DNA from: a virus
DNA: 44,131 nucleotides
Reading direction: 5' to 3' (one strand)
IMG/VR virus record: IMGVR_UViG_3300045947_000230
Span: 1-44,131 of that record
Made by a program: the position numbers and the translations under genes. The notes under the pieces are model-generated. The model was given only the letters and a program-made list of their open reading frames with translations, did no database searches and had not been told where the DNA came from. Positions 9,495-15,780 of this stretch are shown one piece after another; within the stretch, counting starts at the first letter, position 1; every line of letters starts with the position of its first letter.

Positions 9495-10036
9495 TGTCTG
9501 GCTGGGCGACGTGCAGGAGCTGCCATCAGCGCATCTGGTGGGGCAAGGCACCCTTCGACAACACCCGCAACTGGCCGTTCGACGACCAGGACGAGCAGAC
9601 CCAGCACTTCGATACGTGCAGCGCCATTCAGCGCGTGGTGGACTTCGCCGGCAACGTCCACCGCGTTGCCAAGTGCCGCGCGTGCGGCGAGCCTGTCTGG
9701 TGGGACACGACGTGGAAGGGGCGGCGACGCCCGATGAACGTCATGCCCAACGGTGACGCCAGCGACGAATGCCACTTCGACACCTGCGCCGGGCAGTCGG
9801 TGGGTGCGGCACCTGAGCCCGAGCCCGTGGCAGCCGAGCCGGTCGGCATCTACGACATCGACCAGTGGCTGGCGCAACTGGGACTGCGGCGACCGGTCAC
9901 GCTCGAGGAGATCACGTCGGCGTTCCGTGGCCTGGCGATGCAGCACCACCCGGACATGGGCGGCAACGCGTCCGACTTCATACGCGTCAAGCTGGCGTTC
10001 GATCGCTGCAAAGAACTGATGGGTGCCGCGGCGTGA
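9494..10036 (+). CDS. Double zinc-ribbon protein with C-terminal J domain (180 aa)
   Basis: Two zinc ribbons are followed by a DnaJ-like domain. Ribbon 1 has ATCRSCHQ with HFDTC (about residues 7-42). Ribbon 2 has AKCRACGEP with CHFDTC (about 61-98). After an Ala/Pro/Glu linker, the J domain (about 125-178) carries LRGLAMQHHPD-like sequence (FRGLAMQHHPDMGGNASDF) with the HPD motif near 152-155 that triggers Hsp70 ATPase. Phage J-domain proteins can recruit host DnaK, for example to remodel replication complexes, which suits its place by the putative origin. This order (ribbons first, J last) is not that of DnaJ itself. Confidence 0.8.
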   Translation: MSGWATCRSCHQRIWWGKAPFDNTRNWPFDDQDEQTQHFDTCSAIQRVVDFAGNVHRVAKCRACGEPVWWDTTWKGRRRPMNVMPNGDASDECHFDTCAGQSVGAAPEPEPVAAEPVGIYDIDQWLAQLGLRRPVTLEEITSAFRGLAMQHHPDMGGNASDFIRVKLAFDRCKELMGAAA

Positions 10037-10809
10037 CGCAGATGCCGCACTGGTCGGCGACCAGGTTCCAATTGTTCGAACAGTGTCCCATCCTCTTTAA
10101 GGAGCGCTACATCGACGGCATACCGATCGTGCCGACCGAAGCCATGTCGTTCGGCAGTGCGGTACACCGCGGGCTCGAGGCCCATTACCAGGGGCAGGAC
10201 GGCATACGGACCTTCCGCGCCTACTGGAAAGAGATTGCCAAAGAGTTGGCAGCTACCGGCTACCGCATCGATCCAAGCTTGACGGCGACCGGGCTGACGC
10301 TACTCGAGCAAGTCTTCGAGCTCGAGCTGAAGGGCATCCCGGAACGCGGCTTCTCGATCGACACCAACACAGAATTGCGTGCGCCGATCGTGGGCGCCAT
10401 CGATCTGTGGGACCAGGACGCGGGCATCGTCTACGACTTCAAGACCACCATCGGCAGCTGGTCGCAGGTACGGGCCCAGAAGGAGACGTGGCAGCCGTGC
10501 CTGTACTCGTGGGCGTTCTGGCAGGAAACGGGCGACTTCCCCGAATTCCACTACATCGTGCTCAATCGCGCCACCGGTGCGCTCAGCCGCTTCCAGCGCG
10601 AGTGGACAGATGACGAGGCACTCGAGCAGATGAACGATGCCTGGACGCGTATGGAAGCGATTGCGAAGGCTGTAGCAGACGACGACCTGAGCTGCAAAGG
10701 TAACCACGGGTACTGCCCGGAGTGTGGCGATCGCTGGAAGCACGAGCACGTGTGCGGCCCCACACCCGAACGTGTGCGGCTGAACAAGGAAGAGGCGTGG
10801 TTGCGATGA
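10033..10809 (+). CDS. PD-(D/E)XK exonuclease, RecB/Cas4-like (258 aa)
   Basis: A DNA exonuclease of the RecB/Cas4 superfamily. Motifs in order: WSATRFQLFEQCPILFK (N-terminal helix with Cys), SFGSAVHRGLEAHY (His of motif I), VGAIDLWDQDAGIVYDFKTT (motif II Asp and motif III DxK), then QPCLYSWAFWQ. C-terminal cysteines (CKGNHGYCPECGD) may form a zinc or Fe-S site with the N-terminal Cys. Starts are GTG 10033 (GTGA overlap) or ATG 10042. Likely used in recombination or DNA-end processing during replication. Confidence 0.85.
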   Translation: MTQMPHWSATRFQLFEQCPILFKERYIDGIPIVPTEAMSFGSAVHRGLEAHYQGQDGIRTFRAYWKEIAKELAATGYRIDPSLTATGLTLLEQVFELELKGIPERGFSIDTNTELRAPIVGAIDLWDQDAGIVYDFKTTIGSWSQVRAQKETWQPCLYSWAFWQETGDFPEFHYIVLNRATGALSRFQREWTDDEALEQMNDAWTRMEAIAKAVADDDLSCKGNHGYCPECGDRWKHEHVCGPTPERVRLNKEEAWLR

Positions 10810-10810
10810 A

Positions 10811-11440
10811 GTGGTATCGGGTCCGTCGAAGATCCGTAGCCAGGATCCGGGCTACTGCTTCAAGATGGCCGGCTTCGAGCTCGATCCGAGCTTCGTCTCG
10901 AGGCGTTTTGATTCGGTTGCGCTGTCCGTGAAGTATCTGCCGCTACTGATCTATATCGGGACGATCTTCGCGGCCAACTGGGCCATTGTGACGTTCGGAC
11001 CGGTGCCCGTGGGGTTGGGGCTGATGGCGCCCGCGGGCGTGTACTTCGCCGGGCTGGCGTTCACGTTCCGCGACCTGACCCAGGATCAGCTCGGCCGACG
11101 CTGGACCTACGGTGCCATCCTGGTCGGGGCTGTGTTCTCAGGCTTTCTCAGCGGGCCGCTGGCACTCGCGTCCGGCGTCGCGTTCCTGTTTTCGGAGACA
11201 GCCGACCTGCTGGTCTACAGCCCGCTCAGAGAACGCCGCTGGTTGCTGGCTGTCGCAGCATCGAATCTGGTCGGGCTCACGCTCGACTCGGTGCTGTTCC
11301 TGTACCTGGCGTTCGGATCGCTCGAGTTCTTGCCCGGACAGATCGTGGGCAAGCTGACGACGACGGCGATCGCCATCGTCATTCTGTGGTGGGGGAGGCG
11401 TGCAGTTCTGGCTCGGGATTCATCAAGTCGCGTGGCTTGA
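10811..11440 (+). CDS. VUT/YhhQ-family queuosine-precursor transporter (209 aa)
   Basis: An integral membrane protein matching the VUT family; E. coli YhhQ of this family imports 7-deazaguanine precursors (preQ0/preQ1). Visible signatures are YLPLLIYIGTIFAANWAIV, GLTFRD-like (LAFTFRDLTQDQLGRRWTY) and FSETADLLVYSPL, with about five to six hydrophobic spans. The N-terminal 20 residues (SKIRSQDPGYCFKMAGF) are foreign to the family and resemble part of the phage protein at 42978-43460, so the true start may be ATG 10865 or GTG 10928. Its 3' end overlaps the DpdA-like gene, supporting joint expression and a role in supplying base precursor for DNA modification. Confidence 0.85.
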   Translation: MVSGPSKIRSQDPGYCFKMAGFELDPSFVSRRFDSVALSVKYLPLLIYIGTIFAANWAIVTFGPVPVGLGLMAPAGVYFAGLAFTFRDLTQDQLGRRWTYGAILVGAVFSGFLSGPLALASGVAFLFSETADLLVYSPLRERRWLLAVAASNLVGLTLDSVLFLYLAFGSLEFLPGQIVGKLTTTAIAIVILWWGRRAVLARDSSSRVA

Positions 11441-12158
11441 GCAGCTCAGCATCCCCACCATGGTCAGCTACCGTCGGCTGAAACGGCGCCGCGGCTTCCC
11501 ACGCGCGCTCGGCGACTGGGTGCAGGACTCGGGCGGCTTTACTGAGCTGAGCCTGCACGGCGCGTATCAGACGACGCCCAAGACGTATGTGGCGCACACG
11601 CGGCGACACGCAGCTGAGATGGGGCGGCTGCAGTGGGCAGCTGTCCAGGACTGGATGTGCGAGGACGTCGTCCTGGCCAAGACCGGCTCGACGGTGGCGC
11701 AGCATCAGCTACGCACGGTCGAGTCGTACCTCGAGTTGCAGCAGTTGGCGCCCGAGTTGCCGTGGCTACCGGTGCTGCAGGGACAGGTGCTCGACGACTA
11801 TCGACGGCACGTCGACCTGTACACCGCGGCGGGTGTCGACTTGCGGGCAGCACCACTCGTGGGATTGGGGACGGTGTGCCGGCGGCAACAGACCATGGTG
11901 GCGGTACGGCTGATTCAGGGGCTGGCGTCATTGGGATTACGCCTGCACGGGTTCGGCTTAAAAGTAACGAGCCTGCTGCGGACCAGAGAGTATCTGGCTT
12001 CAGCAGACTCGATGTCGTGGAGCACGGACGGGCGCTACCCGGAAGGTGGACGCTGCCAGCGCGTGCGTGACCACTCGAACTGTGCGAACTGCCTCGACTA
12101 CGCGCTGCTGTGGCGGCAGCGCTTAGTCGATCGGCTGCAGCAGGGGATGTTGTTCTGA
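11400..12158 (+). CDS. dpdA: DpdA-like deazaguanine DNA transglycosylase (252 aa)
   Basis: Resembles phage DpdA, a relative of tRNA-guanine transglycosylase that replaces guanine in DNA with a 7-deazaguanine. Visible features: D43-SGGF (base-pocket motif), QDWMCED near 83-89, VLQGQ near 125-129, GLGTVCRRQ near 155-163, and ADSMSW, where Asp203 is the likely nucleophile. A C-terminal zinc site is formed by Cys219, His225, Cys228 and Cys231. It is short, as in phage versions, and lacks tRNA-specific domains. It starts at GTG 11400, overlapping the transporter by 41 nt. Older annotation would call it queuine tRNA-ribosyltransferase. Confidence 0.82.
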   Translation: MQFWLGIHQVAWLEQLSIPTMVSYRRLKRRRGFPRALGDWVQDSGGFTELSLHGAYQTTPKTYVAHTRRHAAEMGRLQWAAVQDWMCEDVVLAKTGSTVAQHQLRTVESYLELQQLAPELPWLPVLQGQVLDDYRRHVDLYTAAGVDLRAAPLVGLGTVCRRQQTMVAVRLIQGLASLGLRLHGFGLKVTSLLRTREYLASADSMSWSTDGRYPEGGRCQRVRDHSNCANCLDYALLWRQRLVDRLQQGMLF

Positions 12159-12161
12159 GCC

Positions 12162-12701
12162 GTGCGCGTGCTGGTGGCGTGCGAGTTTAGCGGCATTGTG
12201 CGAGATGCGTTCCGTGCGCGTGGCCATCAGGCGTGGTCGTGCGACCTGCTGGCGACCGAGCGTGATGGGCCACATATCTATGGCGACATCCTCGAGGCGA
12301 TGCAGTGGGGATGGGACATGATGATTGCCCATCCTCCGTGCACGTATCTGTGCCGAGCGGGTGACCGCTGGTACAACCATTCGCCTGAACGGCAGGCTGC
12401 GCTCGAGTTTGTGCAGCAACTGTATGCCGCGCCAATTCCGAGTATCGCGATCGAAAATCCACGCGGGTTGAATCGCCACTGGCGACAGGCCGACCAGGTG
12501 ATCCAGCCGTGGATGTTTGGCCATGGCGAGACGAAGGCGACGCTGCTGTGGCTCAAGAATCTGCCGCCGCTGCTGGCGACTGCCGTCAGGATCGAGCGCG
12601 TGGCGCGCGTGCACTTTGCGGCGCCCGGCCCCGAGCGCTGGAAAGAACGCAGCCGCACGCTCGATGGCATAGCCAGCGCGATGGCAGAACAGTGGGGTTA
12701 G
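12162..12701 (+). CDS. DNA methyltransferase-like protein (179 aa)
   Basis: Resembles short phage proteins annotated as DNA cytosine methyltransferase. The start RVLVACEFSGIVRDAFRARG is a Rossmann-type nucleotide-binding strand-loop-helix, MIAHPPCTYLC carries an (H)PPC motif at about 57-60, IAIENPRGLNRH follows as an ENP-like motif, and the end reads PGPERWKERSRT. It starts at GTG 12162, 3 nt after DpdA, and overlaps the stop of the convergent minus-strand gene. It lacks a clear target-recognition domain, so its substrate is unknown; it could methylate DNA or act on the deazaguanine product. Confidence 0.72.
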   Translation: MRVLVACEFSGIVRDAFRARGHQAWSCDLLATERDGPHIYGDILEAMQWGWDMMIAHPPCTYLCRAGDRWYNHSPERQAALEFVQQLYAAPIPSIAIENPRGLNRHWRQADQVIQPWMFGHGETKATLLWLKNLPPLLATAVRIERVARVHFAAPGPERWKERSRTLDGIASAMAEQWG

Positions 12702-13030
12702 ACGAGCTCCTGGTCAAGTTGTTTGAGGGCCAGGTTCAGGTACGGCGGCACACCATAGGTGCCGGCTTCCCAGCGCTGGACGGTGAGCCACTGCACACCC
12801 AGCAGTTTGGCGAGCTTGGCCTGGCTGAGTCCGTGCGCCGTTCTCCATGCGCGGACTTCGTTATCCGGCCTGGTCTTGTTGAGGCGTTCGGCTCCTGCTC
12901 GAGCTGCCGCGGCACCGCTCGAGCCAGGTCCGTAGACCACGACGCACGGGCTACCGTCGCTGTGGGTGCAGACCGTATCGCGCACGCGCCAGACGCCGTC
13001 GACGCGTTCGGCAATATAGCGGGCGGTCAT
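12698..13030 (-). CDS. HTH regulator, NadS/XRE-like (110 aa)
   Basis: The C-terminal half is a clear helix-turn-helix: EVRAWRTAHGLSQAKLAKLLG, then VQWLTVQRWEAGTYGVPPYL, the layout of NadS/HigA-type regulators. The N-terminal half (ARYIAERVDGVWRVRDTV) looks like a small beta domain with two Cys. It is the last gene of the minus-strand operon; its TAA (12700-12698) overlaps the TAG of the convergent methyltransferase gene. Its ATG 13030 overlaps the upstream gene's TGA (ATGA). It probably controls the operon or the switch between modules. Confidence 0.8.
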   Translation of the reverse strand: MTARYIAERVDGVWRVRDTVCTHSDGSPCVVVYGPGSSGAAAARAGAERLNKTRPDNEVRAWRTAHGLSQAKLAKLLGVQWLTVQRWEAGTYGVPPYLNLALKQLDQELV

Positions 13031-13191
13031 CGTGCGATGAGTCCGAGAATGGTGCCGATGACCAGGAAGCCGCCGATGAGCAGCATGGCCCAGGCTGGCA
13101 CGCCGGCGATGACGAACACGACGGAGGCGGCGATGACGAGCAGGATGGCGACGGCTGCCGCGTTGAAGTCATCATTGCGCTTGCGGCTCAT
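13027..13191 (-). CDS. Small two-span membrane protein (54 aa)
   Basis: The first ten residues are charged (SRKRNDDFN), followed by two hydrophobic helices (AVAILLVIAASVVFVIAGV and AMLLIGGFLVIGTILGLIA) separated by PAW. ATGA overlaps join it to both neighbours, which is good evidence that it is translated. It could be a holin-like or immunity membrane peptide; function is unknown. Confidence 0.7.
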   Translation of the reverse strand: MSRKRNDDFNAAAVAILLVIAASVVFVIAGVPAWAMLLIGGFLVIGTILGLIAR

Positions 13192-13532
13192 GGCTCAGGA
13201 TCCAGCCGCGTGACCGCGGTATGTGCGAGCACGACGAACTCTGTTCCGTCGGGTGCAGCGCAGATGAGGGCCGGCTCGACTCTGAGCACGGTCAGCGGGG
13301 TACGGGTGCCGTCGAGCACGCATTCGACCTGGGCGCCGGGCTCGAGCACGGCGGGGTCGACGTAGGCCGGGATCTCGAGCCTTCTCAGGGGTTGGGTGCC
13401 ATCCCCGTCCACGAACCATTCGCACGTACACACGGCTGGGTCGGGGTTGCATTCGCCGCTAGCGACGACGTGTTTGTGGCCACACTCGGCGCAGGTTCGG
13501 CTGCGCCAGTCGGCAGCTGCTGTGGGTGCCAT
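13188..13532 (-). CDS. Zinc-ribbon protein (114 aa)
   Basis: The N-terminus holds CAECGHKH and later CNPDPAVCTCEWF, a probable zinc ribbon. The C-terminal part is beta-rich (AQVECVLDGTRTPLTVLRVE), perhaps an SH3- or OB-like barrel. ATG 13532 has a good Shine-Dalgarno (AAGGAGAG). The stop overlaps the next ATG. Function unknown. Confidence 0.72.
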   Translation of the reverse strand: MAPTAAADWRSRTCAECGHKHVVASGECNPDPAVCTCEWFVDGDGTQPLRRLEIPAYVDPAVLEPGAQVECVLDGTRTPLTVLRVEPALICAAPDGTEFVVLAHTAVTRLDPEP

Positions 13533-13544
13533 TGGATGCTCTCC

Positions 13545-14084
13545 TTAGTTGGTGGTATCGGACTCGTGCATGAGCCCACGTTCGTACTCGTCGTTACCGT
13601 CGAGCAATGCCTCGATGTAGCCGGTGAAGTAGCGCAGCGTATCGGCGGCGGTCATGCGGACGTCGAATTCTGCCCAGAAGCCTTCATTCCAATTCTCGAG
13701 TGCGCCGTCGACGGCTTCGAGCAGCAGGTTATGGACTGCATCTTTGATGTGCTCGGGTGGGTAATCCTCGAGTAATGGCTGATCGTTCTCGAGCACGACC
13801 TGCTCCCACGTGGTGTAGTCGTTATCGAACAATGCTGGGCGGCTGATATACGGGCGCAAGAGTGCGAGGATGCTGTCCTGAGCGGTATCCCAGACCGGGT
13901 GGGGGATGACGGTATCGGCTTGAAACTGGTGCCGCAGCGGGTCAAGGATGGCGCGCACATCGGCTGGCAAGCCGGCTGCTTCGTCGTCGGTTAGCTCGAG
14001 CAGGCGCACCTCCTCGCCGTCACCGGTGCTGATGTTCCGTACCGTGTAGTCGACCAGGTGCTGATCGAAGGCTGGCGTTGTCAC
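13545..14084 (-). CDS. Hypothetical acidic protein (179 aa)
   Basis: Not recognised. The protein is acidic and mostly helical, with Leu-rich segments (LLEAVDGALENWNEGFWAEF, DTLRYFTGYIEALLDG). GTG 14084 is chosen because it follows GGAGGAGAGCGC, a strong ribosome site, and overlaps the upstream TGA (GTGA); the open frame extends to 14102. Strong acidity in an early-type operon can indicate a DNA-mimic or anti-restriction protein, but this is speculation. Confidence 0.68.
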   Translation of the reverse strand: MTTPAFDQHLVDYTVRNISTGDGEEVRLLELTDDEAAGLPADVRAILDPLRHQFQADTVIPHPVWDTAQDSILALLRPYISRPALFDNDYTTWEQVVLENDQPLLEDYPPEHIKDAVHNLLLEAVDGALENWNEGFWAEFDVRMTAADTLRYFTGYIEALLDGNDEYERGLMHESDTTN

Positions 14085-14224
14085 GCGCTCTCCTCCGTAC
14101 ACACACCGGTAGGCAGGCAGACGGAGGCGCCGGCGATGCTGAGGCTGCCATCCTCGTACAGCGTGGGCTGCCCGAGGAAGGCGAGCCCGACGACGAGGAG
14201 CACGATAGCGAGCGCACGATTCAC
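14081..14224 (-). CDS. Small signal-peptide or membrane-anchored protein (47 aa)
   Basis: It starts at GTG 14224 after GGAGGAGAGCGTCTC, the same ribosome site type as the next gene, with a GTGA overlap to the gene upstream. The N-terminus is a hydrophobic helix (RALAIVLLVVGLAFLGQP) that could be a signal peptide or anchor, followed by a short tail with two Cys (VCLPTGVC). Function unknown. Confidence 0.6.
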   Translation of the reverse strand: MNRALAIVLLVVGLAFLGQPTLYEDGSLSIAGASVCLPTGVCTEESA

Positions 14225-14526
14225 GAGACGCTCTCCTCCGTTGTCTGAACTACACGCTTCGTGTTGCCGAGTGGCGCATCGGGCATACGCTCGACCGTGA
14301 ACCCTCGCTTCCGTAGCCAGGGGTTAGCGGCGCCGCCACCTTCGCCACCGCTGAACGCCGACACCGGCAGCCCGGTGGCCATCGACACGATGACTTTGGG
14401 TGGATACGGGCGCCCGTTGAAGACGAGCGCGAATTTGTTGGACGGCCAGGCGTACTCAACGCCGGCGTGATCGTAGGTTGCGAGCGCAGTCAGGACCGCG
14501 TCTCGACTGCTGTCAGGAATTGCCAT
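14221..14526 (-). CDS. Stand-alone ScoMcrA-head-like domain protein (101 aa)
   Basis: The sequence KFALVFNGRPYPPKVIVSMA, then FSGGEGGGAANPWLRKRGF, resembles the N-terminal head domain found on ScoMcrA-like and other HNH restriction endonucleases (a YPPK/AI...FSGGE...L..LGF pattern). Here it stands alone without a nuclease domain. ATG 14526 (MAIPDSSRD) is chosen over the longer open frame because it follows AAGG at a fair distance and the longer frame runs through the end of the GP88-like gene. A decoy or modified-base-binding role is possible but unproven. Confidence 0.6.
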   Translation of the reverse strand: MAIPDSSRDAVLTALATYDHAGVEYAWPSNKFALVFNGRPYPPKVIVSMATGLPVSAFSGGEGGGAANPWLRKRGFTVERMPDAPLGNTKRVVQTTEESVS

Positions 14527-14563
14527 TTGGGTGCCAACCTTCCGAAGAGTGAACGCTCCGGGC

Positions 14564-15439
14564 CTACGCGGCCCGGGCAGTGCGAATATCAGTAACGAAG
14601 CCCGAGGTATCGATTCGAGCCAAACCCTTAGCTTTGAGCCCAACGTAGACGCCGGGCGTATCCAGAAAACGTAGGTCGTCGTGGTCGCCGGAGACGACGC
14701 TTGCGCCTTCGAACGTGAAGCCGTCCGAAATTTCGTGGCGGCACTGTCCCTTTGGGCTGCAGCCGCAGATTTTGAACACGGCTGCGACGTTGCCGCCGGC
14801 GGCCAGTACGCGTTCACAGTCGTTCGCGTTCACTTCCGAACGCGAAAACGTCAAGTGATAGTTGGCCGGCATCTTGCCGTGGGCAAAGCGCAGGGCACGG
14901 TCGATGTGCTTGGTGTAGTCGTAGAACTGCACATCAGGAAACCATTCGAGAATGGTCCGGCCGTCATTCATCAGCAGCCGCTCCCATGGCAGGTCGGATG
15001 TTCCGTTCAGGCGAACGCACGGAATCATGCCGGCCAAACGAGCCTTCTCAACGTGCAGCCGAATTTCGTGGCACAGCCGAACGTTGAACAGAAAGCGATT
15101 CAGAAAGAAGAGTCGGGTGCGAGCGACTCGAGCGCGCTGCACGTCGTTGAGTCCTGAAACGTCAAGCTTCTTGGCGATGCCGCCGTGCCCGGCCGTGTTC
15201 AGGCACGAGGCCGTGCAGCCGGCGGAGCGGTACTGGCAGACGTCATACCCCGAAAGATCGGCCGGCGCAAAGTACATGATCGCCGTCGAGTAGCCTCGCG
15301 CGCGACCTTTGTCTGTCTTCGGCGCGTACCCCTCAGGGGTGAGCAGGGACGTGAAGCCAAACTCGGCCTTCAACGTCGTTGTGCGAATTTCCGTCGCATG
15401 CACGATCCGAAGATCGGCCGCTGTGAGCGTGGGTGCCAT
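14564..15439 (-). CDS. GP88-like conserved phage protein (291 aa)
   Basis: Resembles the phage Gp88 family, whose biochemical role is not established. Conserved-looking parts: QYRSAGCTASCLNTAGHGG (Cys cluster), LNGTSDLPWE, FYDYTKH, and a late cluster KICGCSPKGQCRHEI. The cysteines could hold a metal or an Fe-S site. ATG 15439 (MAPTLTAAD) is used, after GAAAGAGAG, with a 1-nt TGATG overlap to the upstream gene; the longer open frame is a shadow. A GC-rich hairpin forms around the stop codon. Its co-occurrence with the DpdA module suggests a link to nucleic-acid modification, which is inference. Confidence 0.65.
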   Translation of the reverse strand: MAPTLTAADLRIVHATEIRTTTLKAEFGFTSLLTPEGYAPKTDKGRARGYSTAIMYFAPADLSGYDVCQYRSAGCTASCLNTAGHGGIAKKLDVSGLNDVQRARVARTRLFFLNRFLFNVRLCHEIRLHVEKARLAGMIPCVRLNGTSDLPWERLLMNDGRTILEWFPDVQFYDYTKHIDRALRFAHGKMPANYHLTFSRSEVNANDCERVLAAGGNVAAVFKICGCSPKGQCRHEISDGFTFEGASVVSGDHDDLRFLDTPGVYVGLKAKGLARIDTSGFVTDIRTARAA

Positions 15440-15780
15440 CAGTTGCTCTCTTTCGATACCGCTACCGGCTCGTATGCCCACAGTTCAGAGAGCATGCCCT
15501 CGCGGTGATACTCGCAGACATACGTCGTCGAGCCATCAGCCGTAATTACGACCGTGGCCGGTTGATCGCAGTCGTTGCCGCTTGTCGCAATGCTTTCGCA
15601 GATTGATGTGCCAATTGAGCGGTATGCCGCAACGAGTGAGTCGTGTAGCGACTCGAGCCCGCTTGCGTAGCGGCGCAGCAGAAAGAAGCCGTTCGGTAAT
15701 CGTTCGATCGAATACTGGCGCGGACTCGTGAAATGCACGAGCCCGTCGGGTGACCGATGCCAGAAAGTGTTGGGTGCCAT
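15439..15780 (-). CDS. Hypothetical first gene of minus-strand operon (113 aa)
   Basis: Not recognised. MAPNTFWHRSPDGLVHFTSP is followed by a helical centre and CDQPATVVITADGSTTYVCE, a small beta hairpin with Cys that might bind metal. ATG 15780 has no Shine-Dalgarno, but a promoter places the transcription start at this ATG, so a leaderless mRNA is likely. The stop overlaps the GP88-like start by one base. Confidence 0.68.
   Translation of the reverse strand: MAPNTFWHRSPDGLVHFTSPRQYSIERLPNGFFLLRRYASGLESLHDSLVAAYRSIGTSICESIATSGNDCDQPATVVITADGSTTYVCEYHREGMLSELWAYEPVAVSKESN

Follow-up and report, generated by a model that had tools for sequence, protein, structure and literature searches.

A VUT-type transporter gene overlapping a DpdA-family transglycosylase gene: a probable module for 7-deazaguanine salvage and DNA modification in a phage

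From where does a phage that encodes a DpdA-type DNA transglycosylase obtain the base to be inserted, if genes for its synthesis are lacking? DpdA phages without preQ0 synthesis genes, e.g. Mycobacterium phage Orion, form group 3 of Hutinet et al. 2019, for which uptake of exogenous precursor has been suggested (PMC6884629). The same question is raised by the viral record IMGVR_UViG_3300045947_000230, the whole of which (44,131 nt) is referred to here as the window. On its plus strand, a gene coding for a VUT-type membrane transporter of a phage YhhQ-like subfamily (positions 10811–11440) is followed by a gene of the DpdA family (11400–12158, class D1 as defined below). According to the open reading frame (ORF) coordinates the two genes overlap by 41 nt (11400–11440), which is consistent with a single transcript. 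This overlapping pair had been recognized in a preliminary description of the window, and the matches to Pfam and PHROG families given below bear it out. The two genes (10811–12158) probably form a salvage module by which DNA is modified with 7-deazaguanine.

The product of 11400–12158, a short enzyme of 252 amino acids, matched the Pfam family DpdA (PF23859) with 234 bits at a cut-off of 27 (E = 2e-69), and phrog_1279 with an E value of 1.2e-78. An AlphaFold (AF2) model, built on 24 VUT-linked relatives, had a mean predicted local distance difference test (pLDDT) score of 90. In the fold search that had been set beforehand as the critical test of the assignment to the TGT/DpdA family, all 21 matches in the PDB at E < 0.001 were TGT or DpdA proteins (E values of 2e-6 to 1.3e-4), with the DNA preQ0 insertase DpdA (7ui4) in rank 2. 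PDB searches by sequence, using the DpdA profile or the VUT profile, gave no meaningful match; for the enzyme, the fold search alone was informative. Two aspartate residues, Asp43 within the motif DSGGF and Asp203 within ADSM, are invariant in the 24 VUT-linked relatives and also in seven diverse members of the DpdA family. By analogy with TGT, Asp43 might act as general acid/base and Asp203 as nucleophile. When the single DpdA protein of the window was used as query in a scan, nothing was retrieved except further copies of this virus and a single distant relative.

The protein encoded by 10811–11440 matched Pfam Vut_1 (PF02592; 42.7 bits, cut-off 27.2, E = 9.8e-11) as well as phrog_4899 (E = 3.5e-34), and contains several hydrophobic segments resembling transmembrane helices. 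The true start of the gene may be located downstream of position 10811; the conserved part begins at about 10870.

Association of the two genes is widespread and extends to many phages unrelated to each other. IMG/VR was scanned with the transporter alone as seed, and loci with at least 1.5 kb of flanking sequence on both sides were counted. In two such scans, a DpdA-like gene occurred within 2 kb of the VUT gene in 66 of 66 and in 15 of 16 loci, a near-100% rate which, the seeds having been taken from pair-bearing phages, applies to this transporter subfamily. In all 94 pairs examined the two genes share one strand; either of them may come first, and the median gaps amount to 23 and 26 nt. 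After dereplication at 80% identity, 43 of 44 VUT lineages had a DpdA-like neighbor, and of the other real neighbor families, those next in frequency (helicase and C5 methyltransferase) were present in about 20% of the dereplicated lineages. The adjacency of VUT and DpdA is not a chance neighborhood. Among annotated phages, the VUT gene adjoins a DpdA-like gene, or is separated from it by a few small genes, in Aoka, Pam5, RHph_N3_2, Bhagsy, phiLM21, ReqiPine5, RHph_X2_30, PEAT2, Tbat1_6 and ECO111 5-P. Comparison of the cluster P Mycobacterium phages Brusacoram and GreaseLightnin (L374 and L375, respectively) revealed that Brusacoram has cleanly lost a segment of about 1.6 kb, and with it, in a single deletion, the C-terminal part of VUT and the entire DpdA. 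Phage VUT genes without a recognizable DpdA-like gene nearby were observed in L283 and in Rhizobium phage RHph_X3_2 (L370); their partner may be encoded elsewhere in the genome, or may belong to a fourth enzyme class.

The DpdA-like proteins comprise three classes, namely D1, corresponding to Pfam DpdA (phrog_1279), D2, corresponding to phrog_15826 of "unknown function" (for example L177, 5962–6570), and D3, corresponding to phrog_887, "queuine tRNA-ribosyltransferase". Simple searches with hidden Markov models (HMMs) did not yield cross-matches among D1, D2 and D3. In profile comparison, however, a relationship emerged between D1 and D2 (E = 7.7e-6) and between D2 and D3 (E = 5e-5), the D-[SN]-G and H motifs being aligned with each other; the direct comparison of D3 with D1 was weak (0.013). 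Loci retrieved with the enzymes as seeds contained a VUT gene in 26/66 (D1), 15/18 (D2) and 25/50 (D3) cases. Transporters sharing up to 91% identity are paired with different enzyme classes, and at least 23 changes of enzyme class were counted on a tree of 119 VUTs. The nearest relatives of the window VUT, found in L278 and L279, are accompanied by D2 and the window VUT by D1; in the compared stretch, L278 and L279 share no gene with the window besides VUT. The pair thus is modular, one VUT subfamily being combined with three different DpdA-like enzyme families, and because diverged enzymes have repeatedly been swapped around one type of VUT, there is strong evidence that transporter and enzyme act together.

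Profile searches of the window for QueC, QueD/PTPS, QueF, FolE and radical-SAM/QueE-type proteins were negative, in agreement with the preliminary description, which had listed FolE, QueD, QueE and QueC as missing; since the completeness of the record is not established, absence from the record is not quite absence from the virus. Having a DpdA and, in this possibly incomplete record, no FolE, QueD, QueE or QueC, the window belongs to group 3. None of 30 viral records with VUT and DpdA contained QueC or QueD, whereas both were present in one of 20 D1 records without VUT; FolE was found in none of the 51 viral records tested. The record G043, from which locus L136 derives, carries QueC and QueD side by side (78949–79964), as the only one of 50 DpdA records; it contains no FolE, and no VUT near DpdA. 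In Arthrobacter phage Aoka, a QueF-like protein is encoded between VUT and DpdA (gene 39; L002, 5480–5806), suggesting that this reductase would convert imported preQ0 to preQ1 on site. A QueF-like protein is also encoded in G025 (the record of L177), and L178 matches too.

The pair is also present in bacterial genomes, where D1 occurred together with VUT in 31 of 80 loci, mostly of Pseudonocardiaceae, VUT always being the first gene and the gaps amounting to 5–35 nt. Some of these loci adjoin genes of integrases, recombinases and DNA methyltransferases. An element of Amycolatopsis tucumanensis (L329, 190–12109) codes for an N6/N4 methyltransferase, VUT, DpdA, a C5 methyltransferase and an integrase, in this order, and moreover contains a PrgI-family conjugation gene. 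Integrated actinobacterial elements, at least one of them conjugative, hence carry the pair, and the module extends beyond phages. Its presence on chromosomally integrated elements, where host DNA could be marked, would be compatible with a role in modifying host DNA, or in withdrawing precursor from a Dpd system of the host, instead of protecting phage DNA. No Dpd restriction genes were recognized in the loci examined, and we regard such a role as very improbable.

A further conceivable function is that of a helper in tRNA queuosine formation, i.e., the imported precursor would be put into tRNA by a phage or host enzyme and improve translation. The enzymes belong to the TGT superfamily, phage records annotate them as "queuine tRNA-ribosyltransferase", and such genes have been read as tRNA queuosine genes in a study on cyanophages (PMC9837993). 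However, among 50 actinobacterial genomes with related D1 elements (27 with and 23 without VUT; hosts of related elements rather than of the window virus itself), 49 lack a genuine TGT and only one has it, so that there is no queuosine pathway to help; this lack argues against a role in tRNA modification. Besides, the family is Pfam DpdA, and those of its phage members that have been studied by experiment have DNA as their substrate (PMC6884629). A tRNA-related function thus appears unlikely.

In the proposed salvage mechanism, VUT made by the infecting or lysogenic phage would be located in the membrane of the host and take up a free 7-deazaguanine base that is not synthesized by the phage, with preQ0 or preQ1 as the most likely candidates; this step is suggested by family membership and linkage. 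DpdA with its TGT fold would replace guanine in the phage DNA by the imported base, presumably in a double-displacement reaction involving Asp43 and Asp203. The modified DNA would resist host restriction, as has been established for other DpdA phages. The notion, put forward in the preliminary description, that the phage imports a precursor and inserts it into its own DNA is well supported by genomic evidence, namely the linkage, the fold, the lack of synthesis genes, and the TGT-less hosts of related elements; we infer that VUT carries a 7-deazaguanine, that DpdA inserts it into DNA, and that the insertion protects against restriction.

Several observations weigh against this interpretation. 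Phage Orion, with DpdA as its only gene of the pair, was unmodified when grown in M. smegmatis (PMC6884629), and 40 of 66 D1-class DpdA genes have no adjoining VUT. The assignment as transglycosylase is less secure for D2 and D3 than for D1. A confident TIM-barrel model of D2 resembled generic TIM barrels, which occupied the first ranks of the fold search, better than TGT, with DpdA 7ui4 in rank 36, and the identification of D2 as a TGT by fold was rejected; motifs, profile comparison and gene context indicate that D2 likely is a diverged DNA transglycosylase. The window VUT scored 31.8 bits with TIGR00697, the equivalog model of the queuosine precursor transporter, which is below the cut-off of 50.95; other DpdA-linked phage VUTs missed it as well (34.0–44.9 bits). 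Because of this score, preQ0 or preQ1 as cargo can only be inferred. E. coli YhhQ, for which a part in preQ0/preQ1 salvage has been demonstrated, shares the Vut_1 superfamily with the phage proteins; the phage subfamily differs in its linkage to DNA-type transglycosylases and in not reaching the cut-off of TIGR00697. Finally, full-length QueC (E < 1e-40) is encoded by 11 of the 27 VUT-bearing hosts and by 9 of the 23 VUT-free hosts. Import therefore is not always needed, and the idea that VUT serves as a stand-in only where the host lacks QueC was not supported as a simple rule. Both the QueC-containing hosts and the missed equivalog cut-off would fit an enzyme that uses host-made preQ0, next to a VUT which carries another cargo and is a neighbor by chance or due to common regulation. 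We nevertheless deem this quite unlikely, considering that 16 of the 27 VUT-bearing hosts are devoid of full-length QueC, and that all but one of the dereplicated VUT lineages adjoin a DpdA-like gene, with three classes, both orders and repeated swaps.

Beyond the salvage module of the window, we are slightly inclined to assume a widespread import-and-insert anti-restriction module, composed of one dedicated phage VUT subfamily and any of three interchangeable, diverged transglycosylase families, which is located on phages and integrative conjugative elements and confers a protection relying on bases that other microbes release. If so, D2 (phrog_15826) would be a new class of DNA transglycosylases, and the inserted base may be other than preQ0.

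Salvage by phages has been suggested before. YhhQ was detected in some phages by Hutinet et al. 2019, without correlation with any group (PMC6884629); the window shares with group 3 a DpdA without preQ0 synthesis genes, but differs in the direct coupling of a transporter to DpdA. Pantoea phage Vid5 likewise encodes a Vut_1/COG1738 protein, for which preQ0 salvage was proposed, but it possesses archaeosine/preQ0 synthesis genes as well, and its transporter reportedly had no homologues in phages (PMC6266253); the pair of the window, in contrast, lacks synthesis genes and has many phage VUT homologues. Bacterial dpd islands, about 9% of which contain YhhQ (PMC11888242), have a DNA insertase with the same TGT fold (bDpdA, PDB 7ui4), but the window enzyme is short, and the phage type of VUT is nearly always located beside a DpdA-like gene. 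No dpdB (DndB-like) protein or restriction domain was detected among the window genes scanned with Pfam, some small ORFs being outside the scan. The near-obligate, partner-swapping pairing of VUT and DpdA appears to be undescribed; no description was found in the literature searched, the scope of which did not extend to subscription papers and a 2023 NAR paper on 7-deazaguanine derivatives.

Several genes flank the pair. The methyltransferase-like gene and, in the facing operon, the GP88-like gene mentioned in the preliminary description are indeed present. The former (12162–12701, plus strand) matches phrog_757 "DNA methyltransferase" (E = 1.4e-58) and has no match in Pfam; the latter (14564–15481, minus strand) matches Pfam GP88 (E = 1.4e-35). 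The facing operon ends with a gene of a helix-turn-helix (HTH) protein (12698–13030, minus strand; Pfam HTH_3, E = 8.4e-6); the plus-strand operon with VUT and DpdA and the minus-strand operon with GP88 meet at about position 12700. In the VUT, DpdA, methyltransferase and GP88 genes, third-position GC content exceeds second-position GC content, as is typical of real genes in this genome. Most matches to the HMMs of the phrog_757 methyltransferase and of GP88 came from the window itself and from other copies of this virus. The methyltransferase was rare in other pair-bearing loci; GP88 was found only in near copies of the window and in L100/L276. The syntenic relative L276 retains the order nuclease–VUT–DpdA–HTH–ORF185–GP88 and lacks the methyltransferase. 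Methyltransferase and GP88 were therefore rejected as parts of the cassette, and the proposal that one of them acts on the modified product is unsupported; they are regarded as separate passengers. A PD-(D/E)XK nuclease-like gene directly upstream of VUT (10030–10809, plus strand; Pfam PDDEXK_1, E = 5e-18) is kept in L276 in the same order, with 59% identity; it is a neighbor of the unit, and at most a candidate member.

Due to the presence of genes coding for a serine recombinase, a primase-polymerase and terminase proteins, the window virus most likely is a temperate tailed phage. The closest match of its terminase is from a Thermobifida phage (39%), which suggests an actinobacterial host. 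Megablast of the 8–18 kb region of the window against annotated phages yielded no match. The same virus recurs in two other IMG/VR metagenomes, as fragments L010 and L011 encode DpdA proteins 100% identical to that of the window.

Other genes were observed in the vicinity of related pairs. A small protein of phrog_9572 ("sulfatase-modifying factor") is encoded beside VUT near D3 (L004, 4744–5001; L009, 5522–5764), in 8 of 108 loci with VUT and D3 as compared to none of 40 D3 loci without VUT. PAPS-reductase-like (PP-loop) genes occur near DpdA in ReqiPine5 and Gilgamesh (L008, 6245–7162; L013, 2002–3093), and a PP-loop gene that precedes VUT-DpdA in L297 likewise has matches at other loci containing the pair.

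Among the 7-deazaguanine phages, those with DpdA but no synthesis genes have formed the largest group and the one hardest to predict. A dedicated transporter beside DpdA would indicate the source of the base and predicts modification that depends on the growth medium; such phages therefore may look unmodified in ordinary culture. This prediction is open to direct test in sequenced phages of M. smegmatis, including GreaseLightnin, which has the module, and Brusacoram, its natural counterpart lacking it. If it holds true, the protection of phage DNA would be tied to metabolites supplied by the surrounding microbial community.

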